Under the pieces are notes generated by a model, which saw only the letters and a list, made by a program, of their open reading frames with translations, did no database searches and was not told the origin of the DNA. From Arbacia lixula (taxonomy: Eukaryota > Echinodermata > Echinoidea > Arbacioida > Arbaciidae): 64,000 nt of DNA. Positions 7,402 through 51,468 of the stretch are shown here, piece after piece (position 1 is the stretch's first letter; each line of letters begins with the position of its first letter). The translations under genes and the position numbers were made by a program. The stretch covers positions 5,647,761-5,711,760 of the forward strand of contig OZ022594.1 of NCBI GenBank assembly GCA_963669155.1, read 5' to 3'.

Positions 7402-7519
7402 ATGGCAGCTAACATATATCGCTATTTCGGAACGGATCAGAGACAAGAGAGAAGATGTATCTTTGTCTTTGTTCATCTTCTTGTCTTGGCTTCATGTCAG
7501 CGTCTTGTCTTGAGTGCGG
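7402..7519 (+). CDS. Paralog A exon 1 (signal peptide)
   Basis: MAANIYRYFGTDQRQERRC then a hydrophobic core, ending VLSA; donor GTAAGC at 7520, phase 1. Same length (118 nt) and phase as exon 1 of paralog B, with recognisable identity (RQERR.IFVF.HLLVL.SC..LVLS). Confidence 0.82.
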
Positions 7520-48600: not shown

Positions 48601-51468
48601 AGTGGGTGGTGGTGTGGTAGTGGGTGGTGGTGTGGTAGTTGTGGGCAGTGTGGTAGTGGGTGACGGTGTGGTAGTGGTGGGTGGTGTGGTAGTGGGTTGC
48701 GGTGTGGTAGTGGGTGGTGGTGTGGTAGTGGTTGGCGGTTTAGTAGGTGGTGGGGTGGTAGTAGGGGGCGGTGTGATTGTGGGTGGTGGTGTGGTACTGG
48801 GTGGTGGTGTGGTACTGGGTGGTGGTGTGGTAGTTTTGGGGGGTGTGGTAATAGGTGTTGTTGTGGTCGTGGATAGTGGTATGGTCATGGGTGGCGGTGT
48901 AGTCGTGGGGCAGGATAACCCTCTACTTCCATCCGGGCAAGCGCATATATATCCACTGTCCAATGTACCCGCTGACATACAAACCCCTTCGCCACAAGGC
49001 GCAGTGCTGCAAGGACCTGCGATGTTTTTACAAATTCAGAAATACACATACAGTTTTCCACATCAATTTTGCCGTTTTCTATTGAAATTCATGTTCTTAT
49101 TCACCACCCGTTCTCTTCTTGATCCTTCTTGTGTTTCATATTCAACATAAGGCTTTCAAAAGTAACAATAAGCATTGGAATTCTAAGTCTCGTTTGAAAC
49201 TGAAGATCTTTTATAATAATACAAATTAACTGTAATGTCCAGTCGGGGAGCAAGATGTGATCACCCCGCCATTGTTTGAGAATCACAAGCGTACTGAACA
49301 TATATCTTAAAGGGATAGTCCAGCCTGAAATTAAGTTGGTGTCGATAAAAGCAGAAACGTGAAAGAAACATATTAGCGAAGGTTTGATGAAATTTCGTCC
49401 AAGGATAAGAAAGTTATGCTCTTTTAAAGTTATTCTATCACATATTTTCATCAAACCTTCATTACCTTCATTTCAGTTTTTATTTTGTGACGTCACGTGC
49501 GATGAGCTCTCCCATGATTTGTTGTGTACAATGTTTTTTTTTTCTAAATGCCCATTTTCTACAAAAATGCACCATTTTACCTTTGCATTCAATACAGCAT
49601 TGGACACACTTTTCACACTTTTACACACATGTCTCTATCAAAATAAAAAAAAAATCCTGCATCAAAACCAGAAAAAGAGCAAGAATGGAATCATACACTA
49701 CACAACATTATGGGAGAGCACCTTGAACGTGACGTCACAAAATCAAAATTTCAAAAGATCACAACTTTCTCATCCTTAAAAGGTGATACTTATAGGAAAT
49801 ACAATCAAATAACTATAGTTTATTTTAAAATTGAATGAGTTATTGAAGCAATTTATGCAGCTAACATGCCTTGAAAGTGTACAGTTTTGTGTTTTATGAA
49901 AACCAAATTTCACTAAGTTGACTCTCTCCTGACCTACGAAATCGCCTAAGGGAAAGTGGCTTTTTGCGTACGTCACAGCTGGGATATGCTTCACGAAGCT
50001 ATATAGAGACTAACTGCAATCTACACACAAATGTTCACAATGACCACTATGTATCACCATGGACCTATCATGGATGGACTGCGCTGGGATAGACTTCCTT
50101 TGATTAATGATGACCGCCGCCTCATAAAAATTCAAGACATTTATGTGTTTTAAACAATACGCCGTATTTTTTATTAGGCAGTGCCTTCCTCTGAATAACA
50201 AAAGAAAATCTGGATTGAGAAATATGTCGTTCAGCATTCGCTGGGACTTCACAGCTGATCTTATTACACACACTGGGAATTAGTTTGGTAATGAGCGAAG
50301 GGAAATTTTGATAAAATTGTAGAAAGAATTTGGTCCGTCACTTTTTTGGACATCTCCGGACATGAAATCGAGGTTGTTTCCATGGAAGGTGAAACACTCA
50401 ATAAACGAATTACAAGATATTTGTAAAGAAATATGATTTCCCAGTGTGCGATAAGGAAACATTTCTCTGGCATGTTTTCTACAGTATTCTCAATTTATCA
50501 CAAAAACGAAGCAACAATATAATCTGAAATTCACAGAATCGTATCATTATAAGATGTTCTACTACTGCACATGCACTTCAGTGCATGAAGTGGTTCCGAA
50601 ATCTTCTGCACATATATACAGAATATATATTCCTCTAAATGCATCCAAAAGTTGTCTTGCATATTTTGGCGGTCGTCACTGGATCAAAGAAGCCAACGCG
50701 TCAAATATTCTATTGTGCTATCAATGAACTAGACTGGTATAGGAATAAATTGCTCTTCGTGCTAACTCCAGTTAGTGTCACACTTAATAATCCACTTGCA
50801 ACTGCCATCACAGTTTCATTAAAAATGCGTGATGATTCTGGCGGAAAAGAAGCTGCGGATTGGCATGTTTGATGCACAATAACGCCTCCCGACGTCAAAC
50901 CTAAAGGCCGTTTTGGATGACAGTAGGGCAAATTTGTCCCAGAGAATAGGGTGATTATTTTCACCTTGATTTCGCTTTTTTCGGATGTGATCTCATTGCA
51001 TGGCTTATAAACTTTCTGTAGATAAATATCTTCATATTTAGGGATTTTCTATGAATATCACCTTTCATGGACTTTCGTCGATCAAACCTTCACTAATATG
51101 TTTCTTTCATATTTCTACTCTTATTGAAACCAACTTAACTTTAGGGTGAACTATCCCCTTTCAAGACAACAATGTCTAAAAAAAAAAAAAAATACAGTCT
51201 GCGCTCCTTCTTTTTCCAATTTTCCCGCCGGTGCTCCCTCTTTTTCTAAACTTGATCCGGGAACATGTATTTTATGCGATTCCTGTGTCGTTGATCTATG
51301 CGCACTTGTGAAAAAAAACGCACTCAAAGATTTGATATGTGATGACTTACCTTGACTCAAGACGAGATGATAACATGAAACCAAGACAAGAAGATGAAGA
51401 AAGACAAAGATATATCTTCGCTCTTGTCTCTGAACCGTTCCGAACAAAAGAAATATGTTGCTCCCCAT
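45273..51468 (-). CDS. Paralog B: signal peptide-EGF-mucin stalk-transmembrane protein with YEEV/YEEI tail (583 aa)
   Basis: Predicted type I membrane mucin from four exons on the minus strand: 51468-51351, 49016-47835, 46747-46666, 45642-45273 (phases 1, 1, 2; 1752 nt). Residues 1-39 contain the signal core (IFVFLHLLVLVSC). Residues 41-75 are an EGF domain with the same cysteine spacing as paralog A. Residues 76-433 are almost entirely Thr/Pro in TTTPPP-type repeats, presumably densely O-glycosylated. Residues 435-458 are the membrane helix. The tail 462-583 has two full repeats of about 48 residues and a broken third. Tail tyrosines sit in DYYEEV495-499, SWYEEI524-527 and PPDYEEV541-547; YEEI/YEEV resemble Src-type SH2 ligands and PPDY a WW ligand (inference). 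Role unknown; an adhesion or sensing receptor is plausible. Confidence 0.85.
45643..46665 (-). other. Paralog B intron 3
   Basis: Contains a long poly-A run on the plus strand (45757-45805), a family-2 MITE (45914-46427) and a fragment of its right end (46545-46573). No gene. Confidence 0.7.
45914..46427. mobile_element. TTAA MITE, family 2
   Basis: TTAA, AGGAATATAGTTCACCGTGG; right end CATGGTGAATTACCCCTTTAA. GTGACGTCACGTGCAAGGTG inside. Confidence 0.85.
46666..46747 (-). CDS. Paralog B exon 3 (transmembrane helix)
   Basis: Acceptor TCTTTTCAG, donor GTAGGG. Encodes IVIALLVLLCLVSVFAVVIA then LVHTRS. Same length (82 nt) and phase as in paralog A. Confidence 0.9.
46748..47834 (-). other. Paralog B intron 2
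   Basis: Non-coding; the right-hand part of a family-2 MITE (about 47378-47690) lies next to the stalk exon. Confidence 0.65.
47835..48915. repeat. Coding minisatellite, TTTPPP units
   Basis: About 55-60 units of an 18-bp motif (plus strand GGTGGTGTGGTAGTGGGT) with 21-bp variants. It encodes the Thr/Pro stalk on the minus strand and a spurious Val/Gly-rich 450-codon open frame on the plus strand. Confidence 0.95.
47835..49016 (-). CDS. Paralog B exon 2 (EGF plus Thr/Pro stalk)
   Basis: Acceptor CATCGCAG before 49016, donor GTAAGA after 47835, phases 1-1. Starts PCSTAPCGEGVCMSAG...GYICACPDGSRGLSCPTTTP, then about 340 residues of TTTPPP, TTTTPP and similar, from an 18-21 bp minisatellite. The open frame runs past the donor into the intron; that extension is not coding. 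Confidence 0.9.
49317..49780. mobile_element. TTAA MITE family 2, right end truncated
   Basis: TTAA, AGGGATAGTCCAGCCTGAAA, through GTGACGTCACGTGCGATGAG; stops inside the right arm near CACAACTTTCTCATCCTTA. Confidence 0.82.
50470..50790. repeat. Segment repeated at 53830-54060 and 55165-55245
   Basis: GCATGTTTTCTACAGTAT, ACAGAATCGTATCAT and GAAATCTTCTGC recur in order at 53830-54060. The continuation (ATTCTATTGTG, GGAATAAATT, CTTCGTGCT) recurs at 55165-55245. Confidence 0.75.
51351..51468 (-). CDS. Paralog B exon 1 (signal peptide)
   Basis: MGSNIFLLFGTVQRQERRYI then FVFLHLLVLVSC...VLSQ, donor GTAAGT, phase 1. The ATG lies slightly downstream of the position matching the paralog A start, which is ATA here; both give 118 coding nt. 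Confidence 0.83.

Follow-up and report, generated by a model that had tools for sequence, protein, structure and literature searches.

A candidate echinoid family of single-pass surface proteins in which one signal, membrane and tail chassis carries EGF or HYR ectodomains

Several described systems come close to the genes reported here. The ligands of EGFR (EGF, TGF-alpha, HB-EGF, Spitz) consist of a signal peptide, a single EGF unit and one transmembrane (TM) helix, and their EGF units are marked by seven residues between the first two cysteines (C1-x7-C2) and by an arginine before the sixth. The sea urchin membrane proteins EBR1 and EBR1_5 join HYR units to a TM segment, and the available part of PMC5521101 describes EBR1_5 as having a TM segment, a SEA domain and seven HYR domains, with positive selection in three of them. 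Transmembrane mucins carry a long Pro/Thr/Ser stalk. Paired receptors with immunoreceptor tyrosine-based activation or inhibition motifs (ITAM, ITIM), such as the Fc-receptor-like proteins, combine variable ectodomain architecture with tail tyrosines in one family (PMC2413239, accessible portion), while the sea urchin SRCR expansion is a lineage-specific family of surface proteins whose sibling paralogues diverge in exon-intron structure (PMC10855680, accessible portion). Here we analyze a stretch of 64,000 nucleotides (nt) from the sea urchin Arbacia lixula, called the window below (C19:5647761-5711760, C19 being contig OZ022594.1 in an assembly of 606,990,701 bases and 590 contigs), in which two four-exon genes, A (7402-13354, plus strand) and B (51468-45273, minus strand), flank INTS9. 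Judged from sequence, we class the family to which they belong as candidate type I membrane receptors of modular build that have diversified by exchange of phase-1 exons.

When the predicted exons are spliced, gene A yields an open frame of 203 amino acids and gene B one of 583. The exons of A measure 118, 159, 82 and 253 nt (7402-7519, 8572-8730, 11763-11844 and 13102-13354, plus strand) and those of B 118, 1182, 82 and 370 nt (51351-51468, 47835-49016, 46666-46747 and 45273-45642, minus strand); intron phases are 1, 1 and 2 in both genes, and all six introns begin with GT and end with AG. By hydropathy, each protein has a hydrophobic stretch in exon 1 (a signal peptide or anchor, ending in phase 1), one EGF unit in exon 2 (phase 1-1), a TM helix in the 82-nt exon 3 (phase 1 to 2) and a cytoplasmic tail in exon 4, which ends in TGA in A. 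Thus the original prediction of two inverted genes with the same phases, the same exon 1 and TM exon lengths and the same EGF spacing is borne out by splicing as well as by blastn, and the matching 5' leaders it described (7370-7401 in A, 51469-51508 in B) align at 26 of 31 bases. However, the start codons are not opposite each other in the nucleotide alignment, which has a 9-nt gap there, so the equal length of exon 1 is partly a matter of start-codon choice.

The two genes differ in what follows the EGF unit. In A, exon 2 continues into a T/P linker of only 18 residues, whereas in B it continues into a Pro/Thr stalk of 359 residues (184 T, 140 P and 12 S, or 336 of 359), encoded by a tandem array at 47937-48909. 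The tails share a repeat unit of about 46-49 residues, as had also been predicted, with one full unit and part of a second in A and two full units and part of a third in B. Remains of the next unit are recognizable past the stop codon in both genes, decayed and with a second in-frame stop in A (13355-13411) and likewise decayed in B (45213-45272), and because of this the arrays in both tails appear to have once been longer. We considered readthrough of the tail stop as the main explanation and rejected it, given the two stops at the repeat remains of gene A. Farther downstream, a 3' region of A (13918-14220, with AATAAA at 14173) is 61.5% similar to one of B (44656-44969).

A and B are not alone in the genome. 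A search of the assembly with A gave 13 places at E <= 0.001, and a search with B minus most of its stalk gave 58 places at E <= 0.1. These included a second locus on the same contig, about 13 Mb away (C19:18.926-18.966 Mb), where three genes, C, D and E, lie in tandem on the minus strand. The 20 other loci opened from the B search all matched the EGF unit only, while 28 of its 58 places lacked an assigned locus. Exon 1, the TM exon and the tail exon of D matched the corresponding exons of A and B with E values of 1.9e-8 and 2.6e-8, 1.9e-8 and 1.2e-6, and 2.0e-16 and 3.9e-11, respectively. Outside the window, the A tail matched only the tails of C, D and E at E <= 0.001 (2.5e-12, 2.2e-11 and 1.5e-8; 44 candidates scored). 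We use the term chassis for these three homologous parts, i.e., a signal-peptide exon of 118-121 nt, an 82-nt TM exon and a tyrosine-bearing tail exon. All five genes, C and E with stops, have a signal exon ending in phase 1, one or more phase 1-1 ectodomain exons, a TM exon of exactly 82 nt in phase 1 to 2, and a tail exon, giving a family of at least five genes in this assembly. In an unrooted tree of the five chassis sequences, A and B were split from C, D and E in 100% of 200 bootstraps.

With boundaries set by hand from the alignment, the exons of C, D and E measure 121 nt (exon 1), 222, 282, 234 and 111-120 nt (internal), 82 nt (TM) and 259 nt (tail), and D is open over 436 amino acids. 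The lengths of the four internal exons are multiples of 3 and their phase is 1-1 throughout; in each of the three genes the 282-nt exon is followed by a GC-AG intron with a GCAAGT donor. The ectodomain they encode consists of three exons, one clearly HYR, one marginal and one without assignment, plus a T-rich exon. In D, HYR (PF02494) scores 45.4 bits in two stretches, against a cut-off of 21.7; taken singly, the 234-nt exon scores 40 bits, the 222-nt exon a marginal 16.1 bits, and the 282-nt exon gives no match at E <= 1. The three HYR-region exons of D matched nothing in the window (best E 0.92) and no HYR was found in A or B; conversely, the 60 kb with C, D and E gave no match to the EGF units of A and B (best E 0.95). 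In the predicted proteins, then, one chassis carries two ectodomain kinds, EGF or HYR. Because three paralogues share the chassis with a different ectodomain, the modularity of phase 1-1 exons assumed in the original prediction is strongly supported. Further copies of HYR exons, at C19:18973499-18973717 and, where the stretch examined ends, at 18974919-18974999, lie on the plus strand, inverted relative to C, D and E. They are perhaps a further family member in inverted orientation; no exon 1 was seen near them within C19:18965001-18975000.

The EGF units of A and B have six cysteines in EGF order (PF00008) with identical spacing, C-x4-C-x4-C-x11-C-x1-C-x8-C, and are 59.5% identical. All six cysteines are retained while 41 of the 114 EGF bases differ (P 0.0011). 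With the exon alone, Pfam EGF scores 22.4 bits in B, above the cut-off of 21.5, and 15.4 in A, below it; with the whole proteins both scores are under the cut-off (15.9 and 11.1 bits). A sequence search of the PDB found 8 sequences at E <= 1, the best being t-PA F1-G at E 0.0021, and indicates no more than "EGF-like"; an AlphaFold model built from the EGF exon alignment reached a mean predicted local distance difference test (pLDDT) score of 68, too weak to build on. Unlike the EGFR ligands, A and B have a loop of four rather than seven residues between the first two cysteines, and serine rather than arginine before the sixth. The two EGF exons closest to that of B are on another contig, at C8:24469573 and 24470195, in a run of EGF units belonging to a gene around 24464032-24472427; they are 65.9% identical to the B unit and 52.6% to the A unit. 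This fits the view that a multi-EGF gene and the chassis have exchanged EGF exons, which about 40 residues do not prove.

A and B, inverted relative to each other, are homologous in each of their exons. Blastn aligned the leader and exon 1 at E 9e-37, the TM exon at 1e-30, the tail at 4e-28, the EGF exon at 7e-21 and the 3' region at 6e-11, and chance similarity was rejected on these values; in the opposite relative orientation there was no match at E <= 0.01. All 15 matches at E <= 0.001 touch an exon (stalk repeats included) or the 3' region. With the 3' block and the stalk-repeat matches left out, four exon-bearing blocks cover all four exons, which random placement achieved in 7.5e-5 of 200,000 trials. 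The part of the duplication that still aligns is the gene body, 7370-14220 versus 51508-44656. The original prediction held that an inverted duplication around INTS9 gave rise to two receptors. The inverted paralogues flanking INTS9 stand, whereas a lone pair is an incomplete picture: with at least five chassis genes in the assembly, of which two have in-frame stops, A and B belong to a dispersed family.

We considered and rejected the idea that the INTS9 neighborhood had undergone a more extended inverted duplication, as most other inverted matches in a self-comparison of the window (among the listed ones of 80 bases or more) are multi-copy repeats. A single further long inverted pair (about 0.7 kb, 66-77% identical) joins 9544-10259 (intron 2 of A) to 54060-55163 (upstream of B). 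The second arm is interrupted at about 54288-54660 by a palindromic element, and its neighbor at 53806-54057 directly matches 50441-50696 in intron 1 of B. Because the pair is off the matching place in B and the neighboring sequence also occurs in B intron 1, it is probably a dispersed element that does not extend the A-B duplication. INTS9 itself, a landmark outside the family, was located with human INTS9 as query, and its exons span about 20523-38943 on the plus strand. Its best database matches were Lytechinus pictus and Diadema antillarum (averages of 78.8% and 77.6% when every tblastn piece at E <= 0.001 is counted), followed by starfish, brittle star and hemichordates, so that the database most likely lacks the INTS9 of this echinoid itself. 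In human numbering, the INTS9 exon covering about residues 250-286 is present in up to three tandem versions on the plus strand (30041-30202, 30281-30367 and 30426 onward), either exon duplicates or pseudo-exons.

The original prediction did not recognize the family, and the protein search it called for gave no relative either. In a protein database that includes other echinoids, none of 196 candidates for A and none of 2917 for B (with the stalk shortened and moved) reached E <= 1; because hits depend on shared 5-residue words and length is limited, distant or unannotated orthologues may escape this search. The INTS9 control gave 693 matches at E <= 1e-5 in the same database. Among the open-access papers listed, judged by title or the opening of the abstract, none describes the chassis family. 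Each related system departs from it in some respect. EBR1 and EBR1_5 resemble C, D and E in their HYR ectodomain and TM segment, but A and B are without HYR, in D only one HYR is clear and a second is marginal, and Pfam found no SEA domain in A or B (E <= 1) or in D. The likeness to transmembrane mucins is limited to the stalk of B, which lies between the EGF unit and the TM helix of a protein with no SEA domain, and A has only its short linker. Pfam likewise found no Ig domain in A, B or D, unlike paired receptors, and the strict ITAM of such receptors is missing from all five tails. The SRCR expansion involves other domains, and here the chassis is kept while the class of ectodomain differs.

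Taken together, these comparisons make it probable, with real room for doubt, that A and B come from a small and rapidly evolving family of echinoid type I surface proteins with a single membrane pass, one chassis, interchangeable phase 1-1 ectodomain exons and a signaling tail. The chassis would be formed by a signal-peptide exon ending in phase 1, the TM exon and a single tail exon that carries tyrosine motifs. Interchangeable phase 1-1 exons would be placed between the signal and TM exons: in A and B an EGF unit followed by a Pro/Thr stalk or linker, in C, D and E HYR units with a T-rich exon. By structure, any such exon could be swapped without breaking the frame because it belongs to the same phase class, although the exchange event itself is something we infer. 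Copies would be gained by tandem and inverted duplication and lost by decay, a birth-and-death reading suggested by the in-frame stops in two of the three HYR genes and by the decayed repeats in which the A and B tails end.

With moderate confidence, we favor a surface receptor or adhesion protein that would signal through phosphorylation of its tail. The tails of A, C, D and E have YxxPhi-x9-YxxPhi in common (YTGF...YQAL; YAGL...YQEM), and the B tail has YEEV and YEEI sites instead. The ITAM consensus is Yxx[LI]-x(6-12)-Yxx[LI] and that of the ITIM is [SIVL]xYxx[ILV]; the latter, a short motif, is matched by A (SQYQAL) and B (SWYEEI) and not by C, D or E (2 of 5 tails). In the proposed mechanism, the ectodomain would bind a cell-surface, matrix or foreign ligand, and the mucin-like stalk of B would keep its EGF unit away from the membrane. 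Clustering would then allow a Src-type kinase to phosphorylate the tail tyrosines (YEEI and YEEV in B, the spaced pair in A, C, D and E), and SH2 proteins would be recruited. According to the accessible part of PMC7337045, the best ligand of the Src SH2 domain is YEEI. Partners for a docking tail would exist, since Ca2+ release in sea urchin eggs involves a Src-family kinase (work cited in the available part of PMC7574550), which is context rather than evidence.

A number of observations weigh against functional surface proteins of this kind. Over 155 aligned codons (exon 1 39, EGF 38, TM 27 and tail 51, the tail aligned by hand), omega, the ratio of nonsynonymous to synonymous substitution rates (dN and dS), is 0.905 between A and B and not distinguishable from 1 (p 0.69). 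By the Nei-Gojobori method (NG86) over 189 codons, dN is 0.375 and dS 0.522, with substitutions spread evenly over codon positions (61/53/64). In codon usage, A scores only about zero (-0.001 per codon, other frames lower), and its tail is cut by a stop beyond which lie remains of the repeat. Noncoding DNA beside the exons is 65-84% identical between A and B, only somewhat below the exons at 83-85% (99/117 for exon 1, 68/82 for the TM exon): the intron flanks within blastn blocks match at 33/45, 31/40, 41/50 and 23/28 positions and the remaining two at 36/55 and 37/52, with 33/54 for an arbitrary mid-intron pair. In the second locus there are two in-frame stops in the C tail exon and one in the 222-nt exon of E, the chassis omega values among C, D and E (1.6, 0.8 and 0.6) do not differ from 1, and the ectodomain omega for D-C is 0.66 (p 0.097). 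As to signaling, the strict ITAM consensus fits 0 of 5 tails, and the relaxed hydrophobic pair, found in A, C, D and E and not in B, is not independent among the four and arises in 2-3% of shuffles per tail. As to exchange, it may have run in either direction, with the C8 gene as no more than a possible donor.

Much of this would be expected if A, B or both were decaying copies, with real exons of a once-functional family from which protein constraint has gone. We regard this as unlikely because both frames are open from exon 1 to the stop, which in a neutral substitution simulation (155 codons, substitutions without indels) happened in only 2.4% of runs, and because all splice sites and phases, together with the six cysteines, are kept. 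In addition, codon usage trained on 642 INTS9 codons places the predicted frame best of six and above all 5000 null assemblies for both A and B, with a score of 0.151 per codon for B without its stalk, compared to a null mean of -0.44. Among C, D and E, the HYR ectodomains, with the T-rich exon and stop codons excluded, are under constraint in two of three pairs, with omega values of 0.47 for D-E (p 0.0024) and 0.55 for C-E (p 0.019). For A and B, a fair reading of the sequences is fast evolution under weak or shifting protein constraint, the weakness being suggested by an omega of about 0.9.

It is also conceivable, and we think distinctly improbable, that no exchange took place: an ancestor could have had both EGF and HYR exons, with one kind lost in each branch. 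In favor of such differential loss, the tree of five genes has no root and divides EGF from HYR genes by a single split. However, the 60 kb around C, D and E hold no A/B-like EGF remnant and the window holds no HYR remnant, traces that decay could have erased in both places, and the EGF unit of B is no more distant from the C8 exons than from that of A. Finally, we give little credence to the idea that A and B encode membrane precursors from which EGF-type EGFR ligands are shed and secreted, and not receptors: one EGF unit and one TM region do fit the architecture used in a screen for single-EGF ligands, the available account of which recovered none in Strongylocentrotus purpuratus, but the first loop and the residue before the sixth cysteine are not those of such ligands, the tail is long, repetitive and tyrosine-bearing, and paralogues on the same chassis bear HYR and are wholly without EGF.

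The window contains several features apart from the chassis genes and INTS9. Upstream of A are cytochrome P450 exons on the plus strand (875-1297 and 2390-2707; 125.4 and 52.4 bits against a cut-off of 22.8). Intron 3 of A holds a minus-strand open frame (12544-12936) with no Pfam match at E <= 0.01, which we take to resemble the C-terminal end of a non-LTR (long terminal repeat) reverse transcriptase. Between A and INTS9 lies a Tc1/Sleeping Beauty-like transposase (17403-18467, minus strand, 354 codons stop to stop) with HTH_Tnp_Tc3_2, HTH_SB and DDE_3 above cut-off. The palindromic dispersed element, of about 375 bp, is present in four copies that are 79-92% identical (27801-28193, 40464-40836, 41074-41451 and 54288-54660). 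A 197-codon open frame with internal repeats is found at 60451-61041 on the minus strand, with no Pfam match at E <= 0.01, and an Rfam scan of the window gave 0 matches.

If the family of single-pass surface proteins is what we propose, a broader and more tentative picture, which we hold to be possible and rather doubtful, is an echinoid modular receptor system: one signaling chassis may have been refitted repeatedly with phase-1 ectodomain cassettes (EGF with a mucin stalk, HYR and possibly others) from genes of the matrix or egg-surface type, with rapid turnover, and may serve recognition of non-self or of gametes through the tail tyrosines. Shuffling of exons of one phase class is known in principle; the same signal, membrane and tail exons with two classes of ectodomain in one genome, phases intact, make such a step datable and testable. 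A single-EGF membrane protein also bears on the sea urchin S. purpuratus, for which the available part of PMC4914847, a screen for single-EGF ligands, reports no EGF-type ligand, even though A and B lack the canonical hallmarks of such ligands. If expressed, the members of this family would be candidates for surface recognition in a group of animals whose lineage-specific receptor sets are large.

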